Shown piece by piece: positions 49,993 through 59,791 of a stretch of DNA of 59,791 nucleotides (positions are counted from its first letter, which is position 1; the number at the start of each line of letters is the position of its first letter). This DNA comes from Hydrogenimonas thermophila. Its GTDB lineage: Bacteria > Campylobacterota > Campylobacteria > Campylobacterales > Hydrogenimonadaceae. Under the pieces are notes generated by a model. That model was not told the origin of the DNA. It saw only the letters and a list, made by a program, of their open reading frames with translations, and ran no database searches. Made by a program: the position numbers and the translations under genes. Location: the NCBI RefSeq assembly GCF_900115615.1, contig NZ_FOXB01000011.1, forward strand, positions 1 through 59,791. The letters run 5' to 3'.

Positions 49993-50917
49993 GAAGTTTC
50001 TCCTTATCTATACACATGGAAATTTCTGAAAATATATTTTCTGGAAACGGCGCTACAAAGTAGAGCGTTTCGCCGCTTTTTGGATGGTTCAAATAGAGTA
50101 TATATGCATGGAGCATAATGCGTCTGATAGTATCGTTTTTGCTCTTAAAACCGTATAAACTATCACCTACAATATGCCTTCCCAACGCAGAAAGATGGAC
50201 TCTTATTTGATGTGTTCTTCCTGTATAAAGCTTAGCTGCTATAAGTTCAAAATTTCCCTGCTTGCAAACAGCTAATTTCTTAAAAGCTGTTTTAGCATAT
50301 TTTCCACCACTTACAATCCCCATTTTTAGACGATTTGCAGGGTTTCTTGCTATAGGCTTTTCTACACAAATATCCTCTTTTAAAGGATAGTCAATAATAG
50401 CTACATAATAGCGTCCCATACTTTTATTTTGTAACTGCAATGAGAGTTTTTCATGTGACTCATTATTTTTGGCAATGACCATAGCACCACTGGTCTCTTT
50501 GTCAAGACGATGAACAATACCATGACGCTCATCTCCGCTGATTGTAGAAAGTGAAACACCTTTAAGTCTTAACCAATCTACAAGTGTTGCCTCTTTTACA
50601 CTTGGAGCAGGATGAACAACAAGAGGTGATGGTTTATTAATAACCATAATATCATCATCTTCATATAGAACTTCGACATCAAAATCGACTCTTTCACTCT
50701 CTCTTTTTTCAACTTTTGGCAATGAATATTCAATGATATCTTCTAATTGAACTTTAAATCCTGCTTTAGTAACAACTTTGCCATTTACACTGACATAACC
50801 TTTTTTTATCAACTGTTCTATCTGGTTTCTTGATACATAAAGTGATTTTTGAAGCAATTTGTCTAAACGCTCAGATTTTGTAGCAACAATTGTTTGCATT
50901 AAACTATTTCTTTCCAT
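49925..50917 (-). CDS. rluD: 23S rRNA/tRNA pseudouridine synthase, RluD family
   Basis: Isomerises uridines in large-subunit rRNA. An N-terminal S4 domain (about 15-65) precedes the catalytic domain, with the catalytic Asp at 139 in HRLDKETSG. The RluA/RluD subfamily is clear, while the exact target uridine is not. The 330 aa product runs 68 bases into the downstream FN3 gene, and the last 20 or so residues (Cys/Gly-rich) look non-homologous. The start may be ATG 50917 or ATG 50899. Confidence 0.92.
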   Translation of the reverse strand: MERNSLMQTIVATKSERLDKLLQKSLYVSRNQIEQLIKKGYVSVNGKVVTKAGFKVQLEDIIEYSLPKVEKRESERVDFDVEVLYEDDDIMVINKPSPLVVHPAPSVKEATLVDWLRLKGVSLSTISGDERHGIVHRLDKETSGAMVIAKNNESHEKLSLQLQNKSMGRYYVAIIDYPLKEDICVEKPIARNPANRLKMGIVSGGKYAKTAFKKLAVCKQGNFELIAAKLYTGRTHQIRVHLSALGRHIVGDSLYGFKSKNDTIRRIMLHAYILYLNHPKSGETLYFVAPFPENIFSEISMCIDKEKLHEILDSNSLLNAFNGCDGWMCR

Positions 50918-50959
50918 TGATTCGATAAAATATCTCCAATTAACTCTGCAGGTAAACAG

Positions 50960-52081
50960 ATGAAATTTTCTCCTATATTTGACAGGCGCATTTTAACACA
51001 CTTTGATTTTTTTTTACTGCTACTTATCTTGCCTATAATAACTGTTTCACTGGTTTTGGTTAACGAAATAAGCTTTGCCCTCTTTAGAAAAGAGCTTTTC
51101 TACATTGGTCTTGGTTTTTTGGTATTTTTCATATTTTTTCTTATACCCTGGCGTTCTATTCGTTGGCTAATACCATATTTTTACTGGGGCAACATATTTC
51201 TTTTAATAAGTGTAGATCTTTTTGGGGTTACAAAACTGGGTGCACAAAGATGGCTTGAGATACCATTTATAGGCTTAACTATACAGCCATCAGAGCTTTT
51301 TAAACCTGCATTTATATTAATGCTTGCCTATCTTATACAAGAAAATCCTCCACCAAAAGATGGTTATAGACTAAAAGATTTTCTAAAATTATCATTCATA
51401 ATTCTGCTTCCATTTTTTCTAATAGCAAAAGAACCAGATCTAGGAACAGCTATGGTTCTACTAATAATAGGGTACGGAATTTTATTTGTAGTTGGCGTTC
51501 ACTGGAAAATTTGGGCAGGAATTATCATAACTTTAGCTGTTGCTGCACCATTTCTCTATAGTAATCTACACGACTATCAAAAAAAGCGTATTCACGATTT
51601 CCTTGCAGAAAAACCAAGTTACCACGTTCAACAATCAATCATTGCCATAGGTTCAGGAGGCTTAACAGGAAAGCCAAAAGATGAAGCAACACAAACTCAA
51701 CTAAAATTTTTACCCATTGCATCGAGTGATTTTATATTTGCATATTTTGTAGAGAGATTCGGCTTTGTAGGAGCCGCTCTTTTAATACTTTTATATGCTA
51801 TGCTGATTTTGCATATCTTTAGTTTAGGTTTGCAACCATACACTGACTACTATATAAAAGTGTTTGCATATGGTATAGCTTTTTTGATTTTTGTATATAC
51901 AAGTGTAAATATTTTAATGACTATTGGACTAGCTCCAGTGGTTGGTGTACCGCTTCCTCTTTTAAGTCACGGAGGAAGTAGTTTTATAAATTTCATGGTT
52001 CTTTTTGGAATTTTGGAAAATTTACTTGCTTTTCGATTTAATTTTTTGTATAATTCCAGCTCGAAAGTTAGTTACCTCTAA
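50960..52081 (+). CDS. rodA: Rod-shape peptidoglycan glycosyltransferase RodA
   Basis: SEDS-family membrane polymerase that extends glycan strands during elongation, paired with PBP2 (mrdA, 20375-22162). About ten spans are visible. The family signature near the C terminus is VGVPLPLLSHGGSSF, and the extracytoplasmic catalytic region includes KEPDLGTAMV. The 373 aa length is typical of RodA rather than FtsW. It is transcribed divergently from rluD; the tRNA promoter lies within its last 60 bases. Confidence 0.95.
   Translation: MKFSPIFDRRILTHFDFFLLLLILPIITVSLVLVNEISFALFRKELFYIGLGFLVFFIFFLIPWRSIRWLIPYFYWGNIFLLISVDLFGVTKLGAQRWLEIPFIGLTIQPSELFKPAFILMLAYLIQENPPPKDGYRLKDFLKLSFIILLPFFLIAKEPDLGTAMVLLIIGYGILFVVGVHWKIWAGIIITLAVAAPFLYSNLHDYQKKRIHDFLAEKPSYHVQQSIIAIGSGGLTGKPKDEATQTQLKFLPIASSDFIFAYFVERFGFVGAALLILLYAMLILHIFSLGLQPYTDYYIKVFAYGIAFLIFVYTSVNILMTIGLAPVVGVPLPLLSHGGSSFINFMVLFGILENLLAFRFNFLYNSSSKVSYL
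52026..52054 (+). promoter_or_regulatory. Promoter of the tRNA gene inside rodA
   Basis: TTGCTT at 52026-52031 and TATAAT at 52049-52054 are 17 bp apart, inside the 3' end of rodA, 36 bases before the mature tRNA. The downstream discriminator is fairly GC-rich, as at many stable-RNA promoters. Confidence 0.6.
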
Positions 52082-52089
52082 TTTTCAAA

Positions 52090-52166
52090 GGGCCAATAGC
52101 TCAGTTGGTTAGAGCATCCGGCTCATAACCGGATGGTCCCAGGTTCGAGTCCTGGTTGGCCCACCA
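52090..52166 (+). tRNA. tRNA with CAU anticodon (elongator Met, or Ile2)
   Basis: A 77-nt cloverleaf with acceptor arms GGGCCAA/TTGGCCC, T-arm GGTTCGAGTCC and encoded CCA. The anticodon CAT is at 52124-52126 in a seven-base loop closed by TCCGG/CCGGA. The G1-C72 pair rules out the initiator type, which has an unpaired 1-72. CAU can be elongator Met or, after lysidine modification, Ile2; I favour Met. Its 3' end is the probable attachment site of the island that follows. Confidence 0.95.
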
Positions 52167-52443
52167 CTTCAAAACTCCATAAAATCGGACTTCATAACCA
52201 TTTCAATCAAGTGTTTAAGTTTTCTATGTAATACTGATTGCTACCCTATTGCTACCCATCTTTTAGATTTCTACCTTTTTGCTACCCTGTAAAGGTTTTT
52301 ACAGTCCTGATGAGGTCAAGCAGATAATAAAATGATAGTGTTACAATGTAATAGTAAAGTTTTGATGAGGTCAAGCAGGGATTAAAGAGGGTAGCAAACG
52401 GGTAGCATTAATCCCCGATCATTCAATCGGGGTGTAGCAGGTA
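52167..52443. other. Attachment-side repeat region (attL-like)
   Basis: No gene fits here. TTGCTACCC occurs at 52238-52246, 52249-52257 and 52279-52287. Its inverse occurs as GGGTAGCAA at 52389-52397 and GGGTAGCAT at 52400-52408. Between these sets lies a 16-bp direct repeat. This layout, right after a tRNA 3' end, resembles arm-type sites of a tyrosine recombinase plus accessory-factor sites. A hairpin with seven-base arms at 52413-52419 and 52426-52432 precedes the last leftward gene's end and could terminate the island operon. Confidence 0.6.
52308..52378 (+). repeat. 16-bp direct repeat near the tRNA
   Basis: TGATGAGGTCAAGCAG occurs at 52308-52323 and 52363-52378, 55 bp apart start to start, inside the attachment-side region. 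Such pairs are typical of excisionase or other accessory-factor sites. Confidence 0.85.
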
Positions 52444-52713
52444 CTATTTACCTGAAAGTATTCTGTCAAGCTCTTCATATACTAAGTGGCTTCTTTCCAT
52501 TGCTTGTTTCATATTACGCCCAATACCATTTAAGATTAACTGCATCTGATCAAATGAATCATATTCATCCGGTTCTAAATTCTCCTCCATATATTCAGCC
52601 ATTGCCAATGTACTAGCCGCCGCCGTATATTGCAAGTTTGCATCTAGTAACTCATCTGCTAACTTAAGTAGTCTTTCTCTTTCTACTGTTATTAGGTTTT
52701 GATTATTTGCCAT
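52444..52713 (-). CDS. Small island protein, unknown
   Basis: An 89 aa acidic helical protein with no recognisable family, cysteine, signal or membrane segment. A good AGAGGTGAG site precedes its ATG. It is the last gene of the island operon, next to the attachment site. In satellites this position often holds genes that interfere with or redirect helper packaging; that is only a positional guess. Confidence 0.6.
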   Translation of the reverse strand: MANNQNLITVERERLLKLADELLDANLQYTAAASTLAMAEYMEENLEPDEYDSFDQMQLILNGIGRNMKQAMERSHLVYEELDRILSGK

Positions 52714-52726
52714 CTCTCACCTCTCT

Positions 52727-52933
52727 TTATTTTGTAATTTGAATTTTTGCATCTTTGAATAGTTTAAACAGATCCATTTCTGTATAACCACCATCATAAA
52801 TACTAATAGCCAACTCTTTAAAAGCACCACTATCAAAAGTGATGGTTATCTCTTCAGCTGTTTCAGCTCTCAAAGCTGTGTCTAGCAGGTCCTGCAGGGA
52901 TTGAATCCTTACTGCTTTTTTGGTAGTATTCAA
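52727..52933 (-). CDS. Small island protein, unknown (TTG start)
   Basis: A 68 aa protein with a predicted alpha-beta pattern and no family that I recognise. The start is TTG 52933, with AAGGAT five bases upstream. It lies 13 bases before the next island gene, so they are co-transcribed. Confidence 0.55.
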   Translation of the reverse strand: MNTTKKAVRIQSLQDLLDTALRAETAEEITITFDSGAFKELAISIYDGGYTEMDLFKLFKDAKIQITK

Positions 52934-52996
52934 ATCTAATCCTTTTTAGTGGATTATTTGCAGTGGGTAGGCTTCCAACTCACGCCCACTGCTTTA

Positions 52997-53188
52997 TTAC
53001 TCATCTTTGGCTTTATAAGCCTTGATAGCCTCTTTCAGTTCATCCGCTGTTACATCCAGCTTATTAAGCAGCTCTTCACATTCAAAGCTTTTTACAATGC
53101 GTTGATATAGCTCTGGTCTGCTTTGCTTCCATCTGCTGAATGTATTTTCTGGCACGTTGATTGCTTCTGCCATCTCTTTAGCTTTCAT
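52997..53188 (-). CDS. Small helix-turn-helix protein
   Basis: A 63 aa protein whose first 37 residues form an HTH (KEMAEAINVPENTFSRWKQ), as in Cro/YdaS-like phage regulators or small terminase DNA-binding domains, followed by an acidic helical tail. AAAAGGAGGTGA is a very strong ribosome site. It lies between the small terminase and the attachment end and could regulate the late part of the element. Confidence 0.65.
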   Translation of the reverse strand: MKAKEMAEAINVPENTFSRWKQSRPELYQRIVKSFECEELLNKLDVTADELKEAIKAYKAKDE

Positions 53189-53497
53189 TCACCTCCTTTT
53201 TATGATATGATTACATTTTTAAAAATGTTAATCAACACTATGTAGAGAATTATACCTAATAACTACATATTTATTATTAAATTATAGATTAGTTAAATCT
53301 TTTAAGGTTTATATACAATAGGTAGATTTTTCACTCTAACCTTAATCAAGTTATTCACATATTGGCAATTTTATTCACATCCTAAAAAATCCACATACTT
53401 TTTAAGCTTACTAAACCTTAAACGCTCTGAAAGAGTTAAAAAACCACTCTAAAAAGTATTGAAAAGTGGACTTTTCAAACAATCAATTTTTTAAACC
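53189..53497. other. AT-rich intergenic region with DnaA-box-like sites and repeats
   Basis: No gene is seen in these 309 bases. TTATTCACA (fits TTATNCACA) occurs at 53351-53359 and 53371-53379, exactly 20 bp apart, with a weaker AAATCCACA at 53387-53395. AAACCTTAAACG is present at 53413-53424 and again at 53493-53504, and the inverted core TTTAAGGTTT lies near 53299. It may be an origin-like or regulatory region. Confidence 0.5.
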
Positions 53498-54037
53498 TTA
53501 AACGTCTATCTCTTCCGCTATGTTTGTAATGTCAAAAATATCATCCTTTTTATTGTCGCTTTTAGGTACAACTCCGATTTTCTTTCTGCTCGATACTGTT
53601 AAGCCAAGCTCTTTGCTAAGTGATACCACTGTTTTGACTGTTGTAAGCAGGGCGTTATAATTCGGGTTTGCATATGGTACGCCTTTGGAGCTGATAATAG
53701 TTACACCCTCTTTTAAAACTACCTGTTCAAGATTTATCATCCTTGCGTACTGGTTGCAAAGTGGTATCAATGCTATATCGTCAAGCTCGGTCAACGTGTC
53801 GCCCATTTTTGACTTTATAGCCTCGTATTTCTCCTTAGCTATTTCCGATATAAAGGCATTATCAATAAGTTTCGGTGCTGTTGACTTTTTGACTTTTGCA
53901 CGTACCCAATTACGCTTCTTTGCTTCTCGGTGCAGATAACCTTTGTCAATCTTATGTTTCTCGGCTACATCTGCTATTGTAAGCTCTCCGGCTAAGTAAT
54001 CTTTTTCAATAGCTTTCCAATTATAGCGGCTACTCAT
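53498..54037 (-). CDS. Phage terminase small subunit (P27-like)
   Basis: The DNA-recognition subunit of a phage packaging motor. The N terminus holds an HTH (LTIADVAEKHKIDKGYLHREA, about 17-37), and the region of about 55-165 has the P27-type small-terminase pattern: an ALIPLCNQYAR helix, a G-ending beta turn, NPNYNALLTT, and LSKELGLTVSSRKK. It starts with AAGGGG upstream. No large terminase follows; instead only small genes and the attachment end. In satellites a private small terminase lets the element's DNA be packaged into helper capsids. Confidence 0.75.
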   Translation of the reverse strand: MSSRYNWKAIEKDYLAGELTIADVAEKHKIDKGYLHREAKKRNWVRAKVKKSTAPKLIDNAFISEIAKEKYEAIKSKMGDTLTELDDIALIPLCNQYARMINLEQVVLKEGVTIISSKGVPYANPNYNALLTTVKTVVSLSKELGLTVSSRKKIGVVPKSDNKKDDIFDITNIAEEIDV

Positions 54038-54091
54038 AAGTACCCCTTATTTTTGGTTTTTGTAAAAATTTGTCTGTGTGTCCGGTGTGAG

Positions 54092-54120
54092 ACTATAGCC
54101 TAAAACATTTCACTATAGCC
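54092..54120 (-). promoter_or_regulatory. Tandem 9-bp repeat upstream of the small terminase gene
   Basis: ACTATAGCC occurs at 54092-54100 and 54112-54120, 20 bp apart. On the coding strand each reads GGCTATAGT and contains TATAGT, close to a -10. It could be paired promoters or sites for an activator bound on one face of the helix. Confidence 0.4.
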
Positions 54121-54136
54121 CCTCCCGTTTGTAAAA

Positions 54137-54373
54137 TTATTTTATGACTTCATCTCTAAAAAGCTTTGTCTCATAGTGCTGTATGATTGCTTCTTTAGCT
54201 TTCAACTCTTCTGTAAGTTGATCTATCTTCTTGTTACCTGCTATCCAGTAACCGGCTATCTCTTCGTGGTCTTTGTAAATCTCACTCAACAACTCTTTAA
54301 TAGAGTTATACTCCTCTGTATCTTCGCCACATATTCCGGCTACCTTTGATAGTGCTTCTTGTTTGCTTATCAT
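54137..54373 (-). CDS. Small coiled-coil island protein
   Basis: A 78 aa, highly helical, acidic protein with a likely coiled coil at about 45-72. No family is recognised. It overlaps the previous island gene by four bases, which supports co-translation. Confidence 0.55.
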   Translation of the reverse strand: MISKQEALSKVAGICGEDTEEYNSIKELLSEIYKDHEEIAGYWIAGNKKIDQLTEELKAKEAIIQHYETKLFRDEVIK

Positions 54374-54777
54374 CTGTCGCCCTTAGTTTGCTTCTTTACC
54401 CATTCAGTTGCTTTCAACACTACCTCTTGAAGTGCGTCTCCATCAAAATACTTATTTAAATCCGCCCAATCACCGTCTCTATCAAGACCACGATAACCTA
54501 CAATACACTGAAAATTATAAGTAAGCCCTATATACGAAACACTTACATCATTTATGTAAAAATGGTCGCCATTATTGATGGTTTCATCTTCAGGAAAATT
54601 GTCAACCATCCATCTGATACACTTATCAACAAGCTCATAGATGTTTATTGGTTTTTGTATTAATGGAGCATTCTTGTAACGTTCATTAGGTATCCAGTAT
54701 ATGTAATTATTCTCTCTGACAGTGAGATTTACCACTTCAACACCTAAAACCTCACTAAGTACCTCTTTGCTTATCAT
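54370..54777 (-). CDS. Island protein of unknown function (135 aa)
   Basis: A soluble alpha-beta protein rich in Trp and Tyr with no recognised domain. It has four-base overlaps with both neighbours, so it belongs to the same transcript as recT and the Lar-like gene. The aromatic content and length resemble phage-encoded accessory proteins, but no function can be given. Confidence 0.55.
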   Translation of the reverse strand: MISKEVLSEVLGVEVVNLTVRENNYIYWIPNERYKNAPLIQKPINIYELVDKCIRWMVDNFPEDETINNGDHFYINDVSVSYIGLTYNFQCIVGYRGLDRDGDWADLNKYFDGDALQEVVLKATEWVKKQTKGDR

Positions 54778-55070
54778 CTCTTAGCCTCCCAATGCGCTCT
54801 TTTATTCCACTCGTTTATTTCCCAGCTCATTGAACTCCATAAAAGTTTTGGATTCTGTTTACCCTCATTATCTGAAAAGCCTACAGATACAGTTGGAGAT
54901 ATTTTGCATTTATTACAACCCATCTTAGCGTGATGCCAAACTCCACCTGTAGAACTTTTATCGTATATCTTCCACTTAAAAAAAGGTTTTTTCCCACAAA
55001 ATGGACAATATTTCGCTCTTGTTACTTTTCTCCTAAACTTTTTGTAGTATTTAATCTCCTTGCTTGTCAT
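54774..55070 (-). CDS. Lar-like zinc-ribbon protein
   Basis: A 98 aa protein with the CPFCG...C..C layout of Lar-type proteins (cysteines near 22, 25, 52 and 55) and the C-terminal INEWNKR that corresponds to the family's W.xWNxR end. Lar was described as relieving type I restriction in the Rac prophage, where it also sits near recE and recT. The same neighbourhood here supports the call. A GAGAGGAT site precedes the ATG. Confidence 0.7.
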   Translation of the reverse strand: MTSKEIKYYKKFRRKVTRAKYCPFCGKKPFFKWKIYDKSSTGGVWHHAKMGCNKCKISPTVSVGFSDNEGKQNPKLLWSSMSWEINEWNKRAHWEAKR

Positions 55071-55072
55071 TA

Positions 55073-56074
55073 CTATCCTCTCAACTCTTCTGATATTGCA
55101 TCCAATGAACCCAAATCACTCAATAAAGAGTTAGCCTGTTCTGCATTCTCTTTGGCATACTGTAAAGCTTTTGAGCGTGCTACTCCTCTATCTATCAAAG
55201 CTTTTGTTAGTTCCTGCTCTGGTGTCATCTGGTTAGTATCTACTGCCCCACTTAAAAGCATTGCATTAACATCTTTTGGCTGTTCCAACTGTGGTGCGTC
55301 TGCTGTTGCATCTACCTCAACAACTACCGCCTCTTTTTGGAACTTTTGATAATCTGGTATGCTGCCTCTTTCTGCAATATCATCAAGTCCAAGTGCTACT
55401 GTTACATCATCATTTGCTATAGGTAAACGTTTAATGTGTCGCTTAATTGCACTCTTAATTGCCATCTGCTCGTACCATTCAAACCATACGCCTGATGGTC
55501 TGCTGTGGTCTTTCTGGTTCTGGCTCTTTAATCGGATCTTCTCTATCTCTTGCTTTGTCATAACGTTGTAAAGTATCTCTCCATCTCTGGCTTTGACGAT
55601 AGTTACAACTTTCTCCAAGTTCTGATATATCCATTCCGGATTACTCTGTCGGCTCTCATAGTTCGGTCTGAATGTAAGCTTCTCTTCCCATCCGTTTATC
55701 TCGTAATCAAACTCATCTACTGAATAGACTGCATACGCTTTTAGATGCCATCCAATGCGTTCAAGCATTGTTATATAGCCTCTCCATCCAATCTGTAACT
55801 GGCAAACTGTTTCACCCGTTTTTGTTTTGTAAGGTACTAAATAAGCTAATCCAAGCTCTTTACCCGGCATAAGTTTCAACATTCCCGCCGCTATACCTGC
55901 TTCAACAATGCTTTTAGTTGAACAGTTTCTTAGATTGTAATCTAGCCCTGCTTGTAATAGTGTTGCTGCAAACTTAGCCCCTCTGGTCTTATCGCCCATC
56001 AAAGTATCAAGCATTTTTCTCTTTGGTATGATTAACTGTTTTAACTCATTCTCTCTGGTCATTATGTTACTCAT
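55073..56074 (-). CDS. recT: RecT single-strand annealing recombinase
   Basis: Phage annealing protein that pairs complementary strands, working with a RecE-type exonuclease. The conserved block spans about 30-220: AATLLQAGLDYNLRNCS, LVPYKTKTG, QLQIGWRGYITMLER, and WYEQMAIKSAIKRHIKRLP. The C-terminal 100 residues are acidic and variable. AGGAG lies eight bases before the ATG. The exonuclease gene is immediately upstream in the operon. Confidence 0.95.
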   Translation of the reverse strand: MSNIMTRENELKQLIIPKRKMLDTLMGDKTRGAKFAATLLQAGLDYNLRNCSTKSIVEAGIAAGMLKLMPGKELGLAYLVPYKTKTGETVCQLQIGWRGYITMLERIGWHLKAYAVYSVDEFDYEINGWEEKLTFRPNYESRQSNPEWIYQNLEKVVTIVKARDGEILYNVMTKQEIEKIRLKSQNQKDHSRPSGVWFEWYEQMAIKSAIKRHIKRLPIANDDVTVALGLDDIAERGSIPDYQKFQKEAVVVEVDATADAPQLEQPKDVNAMLLSGAVDTNQMTPEQELTKALIDRGVARSKALQYAKENAEQANSLLSDLGSLDAISEELRG

Positions 56075-56109
56075 CTCATTTACTCCTATAATTGATTTTA
56101 AGACGTTTT

Positions 56110-56146
56110 AAGCGTTGAGGTATAGTAAGATATACCCCTGACGCTT
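56110..56146 (-). other. Interrupted hairpin between exonuclease and recT
   Basis: Outer arms AAGCGT (56110-56115) and ACGCTT (56141-56146), and inner arms GGTATA (56119-56124) and TATACC (56131-56136), form an interrupted stem in the 113-bp gap. With no T tract, it may be a processing or regulatory site rather than a terminator. Confidence 0.4.
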
Positions 56147-56187
56147 TTCGTTGATTTTATTGCCTTTTTTGGCTCTCTCTTAGTGTT

Positions 56188-56976
56188 TTATGCTCCGCTC
56201 TCTTGCTTCCAGTACCAAGCAGGTAAACTTATTGGCTCTGCTACCTGTCCAACCCCAGTGTCCAAAAACTTCTTTAATCGCTCCAAGTGGTAAAGATAGT
56301 TTTCTCTTCCTGCTTCAATAGCTTCCTGTTCAAGCTGATAGATACGTACTAGGTATGGTGATTGCTTTTCAACTGCTACAATGATAAAAGTTTCAGCCGG
56401 ATAACCTGCCAATTTAAGAGTGTCAAGGTACCAAGCAGCTTGACGGTGGTATCTGTAATCATAGATAGCTTTCTCAAAGCTGTAAGGATCCACGCTCTTG
56501 GTCGTTTTTATGTCGATCACAATTCCCGCTTTTTGCAGGTAATAGTCTGGTCTGCATTTACGCGTAAAACCAAGATCATCTTTAGCAAATATGGAGCGTT
56601 CAGCTACTCCATTGCTAAGAATCCCACCTGCTATGGCTCTAATGTTCTCTGCCATTCGCTCTGCTGTCTCCCACTCATCCACTGCTACTACTTGCTTACC
56701 TGCATTTTCTTCAAGGAATTTAGCTTTAGCCTCTCTGTATTTTTTAGAGTTCTTGTTTTCCCTGCATCCGTCAAACTCTTCTTTGACAAACTCATTACTA
56801 AGAGTTTCTGGCTCCAGTACCATTGCGTGTAAAAGAGTTCCAAAATCAAACTGTTTACCCTCTAGCTTAAAACGCTCTCGGTGTACGTAATGCAGTGGTG
56901 ATAGTTCTAAAAGCCTAAAATCACTGCTACTGATTCCATCTTTTGCCCGATATTCAGCATTACTCATCTGTTGCAT
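56188..56976 (-). CDS. RecE-like exonuclease (PD-(D/E)XK)
   Basis: Double-strand DNA exonuclease that creates single-strand tails for RecT, of the exodeoxyribonuclease VIII C-terminal family. The early SSSDFRLLELSPLHY and GTLLHAMVLEP (active-site His) and the core GFTRKCRPDYYL ... GIVIDIKTTKS, giving Asp and D-x-K, mark the nuclease. I favour ATG 56976 (AAGG six bases upstream) over the ATG two codons earlier, giving 262 aa. It pairs with recT next to it. Confidence 0.9.
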   Translation of the reverse strand: MQQMSNAEYRAKDGISSSDFRLLELSPLHYVHRERFKLEGKQFDFGTLLHAMVLEPETLSNEFVKEEFDGCRENKNSKKYREAKAKFLEENAGKQVVAVDEWETAERMAENIRAIAGGILSNGVAERSIFAKDDLGFTRKCRPDYYLQKAGIVIDIKTTKSVDPYSFEKAIYDYRYHRQAAWYLDTLKLAGYPAETFIIVAVEKQSPYLVRIYQLEQEAIEAGRENYLYHLERLKKFLDTGVGQVAEPISLPAWYWKQESGA

Positions 56977-57032
56977 TAACATCCTTTTGTTTGAATCTTT
57001 CAGCCGGCTGATTTAAACGTACCTCGATACGC

Positions 57033-57305
57033 TTAAATCAACTCTTCTAAGTTCTGCTTCACCTCATCAACGCTATGTGCTACAAATGCTATTCCACCTG
57101 CTTTTTTAATCTCGTTTATGTGATGCTCTTGCAATGGTGTTACTCTTCCTCCTGGTCTTTTAACTTCGATAGCGATAAATTTGCCATTTAAACAAGCCAA
57201 AATGTCTGGTGTTCCTGCTCTATTAGTTGCTACAGTTTTGACGCTATAAGCCCCGATTCTGTTCAAATAGTCGATAATCTTCTTTTGTATCTGCTGTTCA
57301 CTCAT
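57033..57305 (-). CDS. VRR-NUC domain nuclease
   Basis: A stand-alone 90 aa VRR-NUC protein of the PD-(D/E)XK superfamily, with catalytic residues in GTPDILA (Asp34) and IAIEVKRPGG (Glu47, Lys49), followed by the conserved TPLQ. Phage examples act on branched or flapped DNA in replication or recombination. It overlaps the replication gene by eight bases; AAGGG precedes the ATG. Confidence 0.92.
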   Translation of the reverse strand: MSEQQIQKKIIDYLNRIGAYSVKTVATNRAGTPDILACLNGKFIAIEVKRPGGRVTPLQEHHINEIKKAGGIAFVAHSVDEVKQNLEELI

Positions 57306-57930
57306 ATTTGCCCTTTTTTAACTGCATGAACTTCTTGCAATTATCAACTGTAAGAAAATCTTCACTCTCTATTTTTGCTTTTATGTTTCGCTTATAAGCC
57401 TGTAAATTTTCCACTCTAAACTTTGGATCTCTTTTTTCATTTTCGCCTATAAGATAGCTTATAAACTCGTCAAAGTTCTCCATCACATATGCGCGCGCGT
57501 ATTCTTCATCATATGTTCTATCTATTAATTGTGTGTTCAATTTTGATACACCGGTGTTTAATTTTGATACACCTGAAACGCCTAAATTTTGGGTGTTTAA
57601 TTTTGATACACCTTGCAATAACTTTTTATTATTTAAAGCGATACTGTAAACGCTTGTTATGTCCATACCAATTTTGGATTTTCTGCGCTGTACCTTTATA
57701 AGTTTTTTTTCTTCAATAGATTTCAAAATCTTTACTACTTTAGCTTTACTCATACCGGATTCATCCATCCATTGACTTATACTGATAGCATCGCTTCTTT
57801 TTTTAAATAGAATTGTCTTTTTAAGCAATATCATCAAGATAGTAAACTCACTATCGCTAATCTTCTTCTGCTCCAGTAAGTCATATAGTGATTTAACTAT
57901 CTCAACAAATGTGATATAATTATCCTGCAT
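57298..57930 (-). CDS. Phage-type replication initiator with internal iteron-like repeats
   Basis: A 210 aa protein. Residues 1-95 form a winged-helix domain like the N terminus of lambda O-type or RepO initiators (helix ISQWMDESGMSKAKVVKIL, then wing KKLIKVQRRK). Residues 107-134 contain three GVSKLNT units encoded by 20-bp DNA repeats. The C-terminal 75 residues are helical and could bind a helicase or loader. Its place between an SF2 helicase and nucleases supports a role in element replication. An initiator is the best explanation, but a transcriptional regulator with a similar wHTH cannot be excluded. Confidence 0.7.
   Translation of the reverse strand: MQDNYITFVEIVKSLYDLLEQKKISDSEFTILMILLKKTILFKKRSDAISISQWMDESGMSKAKVVKILKSIEEKKLIKVQRRKSKIGMDITSVYSIALNNKKLLQGVSKLNTQNLGVSGVSKLNTGVSKLNTQLIDRTYDEEYARAYVMENFDEFISYLIGENEKRDPKFRVENLQAYKRNIKAKIESEDFLTVDNCKKFMQLKKGKYE
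57533..57612. repeat. Three 20-bp iteron-like repeats inside the replication gene
   Basis: GTGTTTAATTTTGATACACC is found at 57554-57573 and 57593-57612, and with one change (C for T) at 57533-57552. Start spacings are 21 and 39 bp. The unit has inverted ends (GTGT/ACAC), so each could bind a dimer. An AT-rich segment follows at about 57613-57640. This fits an origin of the lambda type, located within the initiator gene. Confidence 0.75.
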
Positions 57931-57933
57931 TAA

Positions 57934-59124
57934 CTAAAATCCTTTTGGATGCCGATTAATAAACATTCTGGCTTTAAAGTCTTTATGTTTAAGTGCTACC
58001 GCTTCAAAAACTGCTTCTGACACTCCGCCTCGTGTCATAAGTATATGAACGTTGATAGGTGTCTTTCTATGCATAGATGCCTGTCTTGCGTTCCGCTGCT
58101 GAAAACGTGCTGTTGAATAATCCATACTGGCTATTATTAAATGCTCTATATGCGATAACTCCACTCCCTCCGCGTGGCTATGACTGCTTAGAATCAATGC
58201 ATTTTTAAACTCTTTCTCAAATATTTTACGTTGCCCAATCCACCTGGTCATAATTGCCACGTCTTTGGTATCTCCCCAATGCTCTTTTATATAATTGACA
58301 TACTCTCTACCGCCTGTATCGTGATATTCATCATCAATCTTTAAACATCCGCACTCTATCTGGTAAAGTCCATTGATTAGCTTTATAGGTGTATCTGCTA
58401 CAAATCCCGCTAAAACTCTATCACGCTGTAAAGTAGCTAAAAGCTCCATTGTACGTGGTCCAAGCTCTACATAATGCGGTACTATCTTTGGTTGATATTT
58501 AAAGCCCGTCTGCTCTCTGGTAATCTGTAGCAGGTATGGTCTCACCTCATCCATAATTCTATCTGTCTTAGCTTCTGAATAATCGTTGATAGCTCTACCC
58601 ATAATAAAACGCTGTTTTTTGTTTACAAATAGCCTTGCCCAACTGTAGAAGTTTTTATACTTGCTAAATGGATGACTTCCACATAACCATAACGGGTGAA
58701 ACCATTGACTAGCACTCTCTGCTGCTGGTGTAGCACTTATTAAAATCTTTGGTACATTTAACCAATTATTTCTGATCAGCTTTGCTTTAGCGGGTGTTTT
58801 TGGAAAACTGCTTATCGCATAATGAAATTCATCAATGATGATGAGGTCAAAATCTCCGCTTACTTTGTGTAAACTCTCATAATTGATGACTGTATAATCT
58901 TTCTTTGCTTCATACTTTTTAAGATCATCTTCCCATCCACTGATAGCAGCTTTTTTAGTGATAACCAAAATCTTTTTACAAGTTAGATGCTCTACTGCAT
59001 CAATTACCATTAGAGTTTTACCGCTTCGCTCTGGTGCTTGGACGATTGCTAATAAGTGCTGTATTATTAGCTTTTGGATTTGCTTTGAGCCTTGTATTTG
59101 TAGTAGGAGTAGTGTTATTGCCAT
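57934..59124 (-). CDS. SF2 (DEAD/SNF2-type) phage helicase
   Basis: A 396 aa ATP-dependent helicase or translocase. Motif I is PERSGKT at 31-37, motif II DEFH at 98-101 and motif III SATP at 130-133. The C-terminal half has a helicase-C domain ending in FQQRNARQ, the motif VI arginine region. It is compact, with a central insertion carrying a Cys pair (ECGCL near 265). Similar helicases are common in phage early regions. GAGGTAG precedes the ATG; the replication gene starts four bases after its end. Confidence 0.88.
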   Translation of the reverse strand: MAITLLLLQIQGSKQIQKLIIQHLLAIVQAPERSGKTLMVIDAVEHLTCKKILVITKKAAISGWEDDLKKYEAKKDYTVINYESLHKVSGDFDLIIIDEFHYAISSFPKTPAKAKLIRNNWLNVPKILISATPAAESASQWFHPLWLCGSHPFSKYKNFYSWARLFVNKKQRFIMGRAINDYSEAKTDRIMDEVRPYLLQITREQTGFKYQPKIVPHYVELGPRTMELLATLQRDRVLAGFVADTPIKLINGLYQIECGCLKIDDEYHDTGGREYVNYIKEHWGDTKDVAIMTRWIGQRKIFEKEFKNALILSSHSHAEGVELSHIEHLIIASMDYSTARFQQRNARQASMHRKTPINVHILMTRGGVSEAVFEAVALKHKDFKARMFINRHPKGF

Positions 59125-59135
59125 TATGCTACCTC

Positions 59136-59378
59136 TTACGCTGTTTTTACGTTATTGTTAGTCAAATAGCTAACTATCGCCTGCAATGGGTAGCGTACTG
59201 CTCCACGTCCTCCCGGTGTATCTTTCTTTTGATACTCTGGTCCTATACCCTGCTCTTTTAGCCGGTCAAGTGTAGCTACTGAAATGCCTAATACCTTTGC
59301 AGCTTGTTTTCTGGTAAGTGCGGCTGTTTTGTAAGTCTCAAAGAGTGTTTTGTATAGGTCTCTTTGTAGTTCGTCCAT
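59136..59378 (-). CDS. AlpA/MerR-like excisionase or regulator
   Basis: An 80 aa protein with a winged HTH of the MerR/AlpA type: LTRKQAAKVLGISVATLDRL, a Gly-containing wing, then a RYPLQAIVSYL helix. AlpA-like proteins control integrase or act as excisionase in phages and phage satellites. It is the first gene of the island operon. GGAGGT lies eight bases before the ATG. An inverted repeat just upstream could be its own operator. Confidence 0.75.
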   Translation of the reverse strand: MDELQRDLYKTLFETYKTAALTRKQAAKVLGISVATLDRLKEQGIGPEYQKKDTPGGRGAVRYPLQAIVSYLTNNNVKTA

Positions 59379-59391
59379 TTGTAGTTACCTC

Positions 59392-59424
59392 CATCAAGTT
59401 TGTTTTATTAGCTAAAACTTGATG
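59392..59424 (-). promoter_or_regulatory. Inverted repeat before the AlpA-like gene
   Basis: Perfect 10-base arms at 59392-59401 and 59415-59424 with 13 bases between. The proximal arm ends just before the GGAGGT ribosome site. A TATACT on the coding strand (59433-59428) could be the -10, placing the repeat in the transcribed leader. It could be an operator or an RNA hairpin affecting translation. Confidence 0.55.
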
Positions 59425-59566
59425 AAAGTATATGATTATGTAGAATTTTAAAAGGGAGTGATTTTGTCCAAATATCTATATTTAGCCTTTTTATAAAAAA
59501 TAACTTAAAAAGGACAAAAAAATAAAAAAGCAATAGCTTTTTAAAGCTATTTTAAAAACAACCAAT

Positions 59567-59590
59567 TTTCAAGAGATTTTTCTCTTGAAA
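59567..59590. repeat. Perfect 10-bp hairpin in the control region
   Basis: TTTCAAGAGA at 59567-59576 and TCTCTTGAAA at 59581-59590 flank a TTTT loop. A neighbour at 59532-59551 has nine-base arms around a two-base centre. Confidence 0.8.
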
Positions 59591-59604
59591 TGAGTTTGAT
59601 TTTG

Positions 59605-59684
59605 AAAGCACTTTTAAGAGTTTAATCTAAAATTATAACTTTAGATTAGAGTGCTTTTACAATCAAACTAAGTTGGTTTGATTG
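59605..59684. repeat. Long imperfect hairpin followed by a 9-bp palindrome
   Basis: AAAGCACT (59605-59612) and TAATCTAAA (59623-59631) pair with TTTAGATTA (59640-59648) and AGTGCTTT (59650-59657). Directly after, CAATCAAAC (59660-59668) and GTTTGATTG (59676-59684) form a second dyad. These could be repressor operators or replication-related structures. Confidence 0.75.
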
Positions 59685-59791
59685 ACAATTAAAAGGTGAT
59701 GGCACTATTACAATTCCATCATCAATTTGAAGTAAATTAGCTTTAGTTCTTTAACTTATCACTGTCTAACCATAGCAAAAACACGAGAGGG

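Follow-up and report, generated by a model that had tools for sequence, protein, structure and literature searches.

Gene content at the tRNA-Met locus

The stretch analysed here (the window) is the whole of contig NZ_FOXB01000011.1 of Hydrogenimonas thermophila, 59,791 nucleotides long, which we call C11; C22 and C3 are other contigs of the same genome. At its right end, beside a tRNA-Met gene, lies an element that is probably a phage satellite resembling the phage-inducible chromosomal islands (PICIs). For positions 50000-59791, 39 open reading frames (ORFs) were listed, and the 13 leftward ORFs between the tRNA and position 59378 were taken as the gene set. Rightward ORFs overlapping these genes were treated as chance and were not scanned. 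The features of the locus are the following, with aa for amino acids, HTH for helix-turn-helix and SF2 for superfamily 2.

52090..52166, + strand: tRNA-Met (CAU), integration site (ARAGORN); its 3' part is duplicated on C22
52120..52176: attachment (att) copy, 57 bp (blastn); the other copy, on C22 (L014:15048-15104), is identical at 56/57 positions
52236..52400: non-coding block next to att, containing TTGCTACCC repeats of the integrase arm type and two copies of the TGATGAGGTCAAGC repeat
52444..52713, - strand: small ORF, 89 aa; no match at the limits used (Pfam, PHROGs, PADLOC)
52727..52933, - strand: small ORF, 68 aa; the C3 element has a homologue (44% over 54 aa)
52997..53188, - strand: small HTH protein, 63 aa; weak CII-like matches; homologue in the L074 element, 52%
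53498..54037, - strand: small terminase (TerS) of Terminase_4 / P27 type, 179 aa; Pfam 4.7e-14, phrog_83 7e-19
54137..54373, - strand: ORF, 78 aa; no Pfam, PHROGs or PADLOC assignment
54370..54777, - strand: ORF, 135 aa; one weak PADLOC match, 0.003
54774..55070, - strand: Lar-like protein, 98 aa; phrog_599 8.4e-7, no Pfam match; a weaker call than the others
55073..56074, - strand: RecT annealing protein; Pfam 3.6e-27
56188..56982, - strand: RecE-type exonuclease VIII; DUF3799 1.6e-31, phrog_412 1.2e-68
57033..57305, - strand: VRR-NUC nuclease; Pfam 1.5e-9
57298..57930, - strand: lambda O-like replication initiator; Phage_rep_O 1.8e-9, phrog_678 4.3e-13
57529..57612: candidate replication origin, made up of three iterons of about 21 nt (GGTGTATCAAAATTAAACACC type) within the initiator gene (repeat search and codon shuffles)
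57934..59124, - strand: SF2 helicase, marker of the satellite clade; phrog_62 1.5e-36
59136..59378, - strand: AlpA-like / HTH_17 regulator-excisionase; HTH_17 (PF12728) 1.5e-6, phrog_66 9.7e-7
59484..59791: end of a multi-copy repeat, probably an insertion sequence (IS), which interrupts the element and ends the contig

An earlier reading of the sequence alone had described a leftward run of genes ending at a tRNA-CAU. This description holds for all 13 genes, and TerS, RecT, RecE, VRR-NUC, the O-like initiator, the helicase and the AlpA-like HTH protein are backed by Pfam or PHROGs. No match to the AlpA family PF05930 is listed for the AlpA-like protein. PADLOC, applied to 10 proteins to look for defence cargo, gave three weak matches only (0.0004 to 0.003). 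The att-proximal block is shared with the C3 element, to which positions 52238-52350 are 80.5% identical.

The probable second end of the element

The C11 element is cut because its contig stops at 59791 within the multi-copy repeat, which is also found at the ends of 8 other contigs. The sequence-only reading had proposed looking beyond this edge for a second att copy and an integrase, and both are present on C22. Inward of the 57-bp att copy, C22 encodes a tyrosine integrase of 371 aa (Phage_integrase, 7.3e-35) and a 189-aa ORF that overlaps the integrase by ATGA; this contig then also stops in a repeat. Pairs of TTGCTACCC spaced by 11 nt mark the ends on C11 and C22, and the C3 element has them on either side; these equally spaced arm repeats support the pairing of C11 with C22. 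Judged from these features, the other end of the element is very probably on C22.

The repeat is located in or just after the integrase-overlapping ORF and ahead of alpA in the C11/C22 element, so the C11 copy may be impaired. Two types of repeat end break the assembly: A (C11 type) at 9 contig ends and B (C22 type, L014:16905-17068) at 11. By eye, most of the 11 copies of repeat B have their outer edge against G-rich flanks that resemble ribosome-binding sites, and this edge ends in a promoter-like TATTATACGAG. Repeats A and B may be a mobile element whose insertions fall ahead of genes. Their interior was found in no contig, and copies of repeat A occurred in 0 of the 17 other genomes of the genus.

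The insertion locus was also compared across the genus using rodA, which was matched in 17 of 18 genomes including this one. At the rodA loci of 16 relatives the tRNA is present in 15, one of them truncated at a contig edge; ppsA is in none of them within the 0-1.4 kb of flank beyond, and the genes downstream of the tRNA differ.

Related elements in other genomes

Six elements of this kind occur in five genomes: C11, C3, G040, L073, L074 and L072, where L073 and the element of genome G257 are one and were counted once. The helicase is common to all six, with 57-96% identity in an all-against-all comparison. L072 is partial (cut). The integrase end is present in the other five, and all of these have the same gene order of integrase, one or more extra ORFs, AlpA-like HTH and replication genes. 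The AlpA-like ORF was matched by profile in C11, C3, G040 and L073, and in L074, where it is 57 aa long, it was recognised by eye only. The integrase is overlapped by an ORF by 4 nt in C22, L073 and L074 and by 11 nt in G040 if an inner ATG is used; C3 has no such overlap. Each of C3, L073, L072 and L074 also contains one small gene-like ORF of at least 60 aa on the opposite strand.

Att repeats are clear in the C3, G040 and L073 elements. The C3 element, in the same genome as the window, is complete: it occupies 9.75 kb at tRNA-Pro between 28-bp att repeats. The G040 element lies in a single-contig genome at a tmRNA site with a 24-nt repeat at 96%, and the L073 element at a tRNA-Leu site with a 57-column repeat at 91%. 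The sites of L074 and L072 are a tmRNA and a tRNA-Leu, respectively. The sequence-only reading had proposed a comparison with intact relatives: five were found that share the core with the window copy, use other att sites and contain no recognised structural genes.

Searching 149 genomes with the helicase matched five (G000, G040, two at 40% and G058 at 24%). Among 398 genomes of the order seven matched, and only G000, G040 and G257 belong to the close clade; the matches stand at 40% in G077 and G144 and are weak in G261 and G370. A scan of a genome contig collection returned three loci (L072, L073, L074), a scan of a viral contig collection returned nine distant loci (25-33%), and two plasmid records match at 28-29%. 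The sequence-only reading had asked whether relatives carry this segment as part of a full prophage. No full prophage with a helicase of this clade was seen in the genomes and collections searched, and the nearest phage copies are 39-40% identical. Scans of the viral contig collection with TerS and RecT gave no relative, and a blastn comparison of the element with phages found nothing.

Six genes compared between L072 and L073 have dN/dS ratios (nonsynonymous to synonymous divergence) of 0.09-0.35, which argues against decay of those two copies. For the last gene (L072:5408-5914, L073:15501-16004) dS is 1.14, about 5-fold the helicase dS of 0.23 in the same pair. A difference this large suggests exchange between elements, in which the last gene would have been swapped between satellites.

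Late genes and the prophage alternatives

PHROGs scans covered 13 proteins from the window, 2 from C22, 11 from C3 (the primase-like one in part), 5 from G040, 10 from L073 and 10 from L074. The siblings' other core proteins were assigned by blastp, and the scans did not extend to the small L072 ORFs or to a few in G040. No structural, lysis or large-terminase (TerL) gene was matched among the scanned ORFs of the elements; for TerL and structural genes in the 13 ORFs of the window this agrees with the earlier claim that none was present. The only strong packaging match was the window TerS. Weak packaging matches were those of a 64-aa HTH protein of L074 to a TerS family (2.3e-4), of the window AlpA-like protein to phrog_57 (0.001) and of C3 HTH proteins to TerS families (0.013-0.02). 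The C22 integrase matched a scaffolding family weakly (0.018).

Beyond the element, no contig of the host genome had a TerL match to PF03354 (3/14 controls matched) or phrog_2 (11/14 controls matched), and none had a match to the HK97 capsid family PF05065 (4/14 controls matched). A complete prophage was thus not detected by TerL or HK97 capsid genome-wide, portal not having been searched on that scale. This bears on a rival reading in which C11 and C22 flank an ordinary prophage of large size, with its late genes hidden in the assembly gap; that reading draws on the unjoined contigs and the missing repeat interior. We consider it very improbable: the genome that gave no match to these families is rated 100% complete, and the C3 sibling has two small ORFs only between integrase and AlpA.

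Alternatively, the element could be a decaying prophage whose late genes have been deleted. It contains the phage genes for RecE, RecT, TerS and the O-like initiator, it is interrupted by an IS-like repeat, related helicases occur in true phages (NrS-1, 39%; a G144 contig with terminase-like ORFs by eye), and RecE at 52-60% identity is present in prophage-like regions. Against these points stand six related elements in five genomes, all lacking recognised structural genes in like manner, with att repeats kept, genes open and low dN/dS in the L072/L073 pair. Decay of this kind is quite unlikely because the same 8-10 kb design would need independent deletions.

The replication module

An O-like gene is present in five elements (C11, G040, L073, L072 and L074). 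In the window copy, three 21-nt iterons span codons 106-134; three copies were reached in 0/200 codon shuffles of this gene and, among 53 window ORFs of at least 150 aa, in the O-like gene only. In all five, the start of the strongest tandem repeat falls within codons 100-112. The best repeat is 18/18 nt in C11, 17 nt in G040 and 18 nt in L073, each equalled by 0/300 codon shuffles. It is 15 nt in L072 (6/300 shuffles) and in L074 (5/300), where the triple was reached in 0/100. The repeat sequences of C11, G040, L073 and L074 are unlike one another. Because the repeats keep the same place with different sequence, we read them as candidate initiator-specific origins. The C3 element has, instead of the O-like gene, an AAA_25 protein and a CHC2-like protein whose match (6.5e-5) is below the curated cut-off.

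The packaging gene and a possible helper

A TerS search of 398 genomes matched 12, including the genome of the window. The six best other homologues, 27-32% identical, are all in prophages beside TerL (checked with Pfam in L134, L135, L137, L138 and L139, and seen by eye, in pieces, in L136); the accompanying HNH, portal and capsid genes were checked with Pfam in L134 and by eye in the remaining five. Among the five weaker matches only G144 was inspected, and by eye it has terminase-like ORFs. These neighbourhoods make an HK97-type phage with a PF03354/PF20441 TerL a plausible helper.

Four siblings have, as their last gene and in the TerS place, one for a winged HTH (wHTH) protein. The structural model of this protein is of low confidence (pLDDT, a model confidence score, of 66) and matched no fold at E<=0.001; the N-terminal domain is similar to Xis/MerR domains and to the viral-packaging DNA-binding domain 7lwr (E 0.73). 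We considered the wHTH protein as a Nu1-type TerS and set this aside, as these likenesses are not diagnostic. Scanning viral contigs with it gave one locus, which covers residues 1-58 only.

A probable PICI-like satellite of Campylobacterota

We conclude with fair confidence that the element is a tRNA-integrated, PICI-like phage satellite of a Campylobacterota lineage. The sequence-only reading had proposed such a satellite, and the att sites and integrase, the lack of TerL and capsid genes and the five relatives support it; status as a proven PICI does not follow, as the pri-rep module of PICIs is replaced. We therefore file the element as PICI-like rather than as a proven PICI, since pri-rep is replaced and mobilisation is a prediction. 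The best reading of the gene content is a satellite with an O-type initiator for its replication and with RecE/RecT in place of pri-rep.

In the mechanism we propose, an infecting or induced helper phage would switch on AlpA, which with the integrase and the integrase-overlapping protein would excise the island. The O-like initiator would then start replication at its own iterons and RecE/RecT would help to form concatemers. Finally, the satellite TerS would recruit the helper TerL, leading to the cutting of satellite DNA into helper capsids.

Several points weigh against this interpretation. We infer the helper, induction, excision and packaging, and we likewise infer the join of C11 and C22, from the att copies, arm repeats and gene order. 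Between the two contigs is a repeat whose interior is absent from the assembly, and other sequence could lie there. The 16 rodA loci of relatives, with 0-1.4 kb of flank, gave no clean empty site, and the helicase was matched in 0/17 other genomes of the genus. In L074 the far att is a weak one (14/15 nt) that lies outside the tmRNA gene. The C3 sibling is without TerS, RecE, RecT and the O-like gene, and the wHTH protein that G040, G257, L072 and L074 carry in the TerS place has a candidate role only. RecE at 52-60% identity is also found in other prophage-like regions of the order.

These last regions are at G040 C1:1201540 and on G318 C31 and C49 (L163, L164, L165) and by eye bear integrase, RecT-like and repressor-like genes. 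Judged by such gene content, they are a second reservoir of satellite recombination genes.

A self-replicating integrative element, that is, an integrative plasmid that uses no phage capsids and holds TerS by accident, would also have its own integrase, initiator and iterons, and it would accommodate both the C3 sibling without TerS and a genome without a TerL-bearing helper prophage. We regard this as unlikely. The TerS, at 179 aa, is intact and has prophage homologues that adjoin TerL, RecE/RecT are of phage type, Pfam matched none of the 13 window ORFs to a relaxase or partition family, and the two plasmid records match the helicase at just 28-29%.

If the element is a PICI-like satellite, it may belong to a phylum-specific family that combines lambda-like replication with RecE/RecT and swaps its packaging-specificity slot, so that one replication chassis would parasitise different helpers. 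We offer this tentatively, as rather less than an even chance. Under it, the slot would hold the P27-type TerS in the window copy and, in four siblings, the unrelated protein of wHTH plus helical build (possibly a Nu1-like TerS).

A search of open-licence PubMed Central (PMC) papers by titles and abstract starts found none on a satellite of Campylobacterota. One survey used a single PICI integrase to search more than 32,000 genomes of Campylobacter and other Epsilonproteobacteria; it inspected the five best matches per database and reported phage-gene surroundings in Enterobacterales only (PMC10111431). The compact family described here supplies markers (helicase, O-like gene and AlpA) for finding more such elements in Campylobacterota, as well as a concrete helper prediction. 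It also suggests that satellite replication is built here from a lambda-type module, not pri-rep.

Comparison with known systems

Gram-negative PICIs of the EcCICFT073 type are described, in the sections of PMC6092414 that we draw on, as att-integrated islands with an AlpA-type regulator, their own replication and a one-way gene order. They have TerS in some members, no structural or lytic genes, a pri-rep gene with an adjacent iteron origin and att sites that those sections state are never used by prophages. They are induced by, packaged in and interfere with a helper phage; Gram-positive PICIs are given there as about 15 kb (PMC6092414). The elements described here share the integrase and direct-repeat att (through the proposed C11-C22 pairing, and fully in the C3 sibling), the lack of structural or lytic genes among the scanned ORFs (the 13 window and 2 C22 proteins and the siblings) and an AlpA-type regulator, by way of HTH_17 (PF12728) and phrog_66. 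Transcription is likewise one-way, with 13 window genes leftward and the C22 integrase in the same sense once C22 is turned, and the window copy has TerS. In contrast, pri-rep with adjacent iterons gives way to an O-like initiator whose gene contains the iterons or, in the C3 sibling, to CHC2-like and AAA proteins. The elements also differ in measuring 8-10 kb, in having an SF2 helicase together with the O-like initiator and RecE/RecT, and in belonging to the phylum Campylobacterota.

The phage-inducible chromosomal minimalist islands (PICMIs) of Vibrionaceae are small, as are the elements described here. As far as the portions of PMC10803314 used here go, PICMI115 requires an integrase-overlapping ORF for excision, and PICMI models require a primase and take the fis site marker as optional in one model and mandatory in another. 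In both systems an ORF overlaps the integrase by ATGA, and an AlpA-like gene of PF12728 type comes after it. Unlike the PICMI combination of int, alpA and primase, the elements are mostly without a primase (no primase match among the C11/C22 ORFs, and a CHC2-like one only in C3), the window copy has TerS, and insertion is at tRNA-Met, tRNA-Pro, tRNA-Leu or tmRNA, not fis.

Among phages, Nitratiruptor phage NrS-1 has a homologous helicase (39%) adjoining an endonuclease gene, and NrS-4 has RecE and RecT at 37% and 32% identity. NrS-1 and NrS-4 differ in being full temperate phages that encode capsid and tail. In lambda, the origin iterons lie inside the O gene. The elements resemble lambda in that the gene for their O-like initiator contains iterons, and differ in that this module is carried by an island without virion genes.

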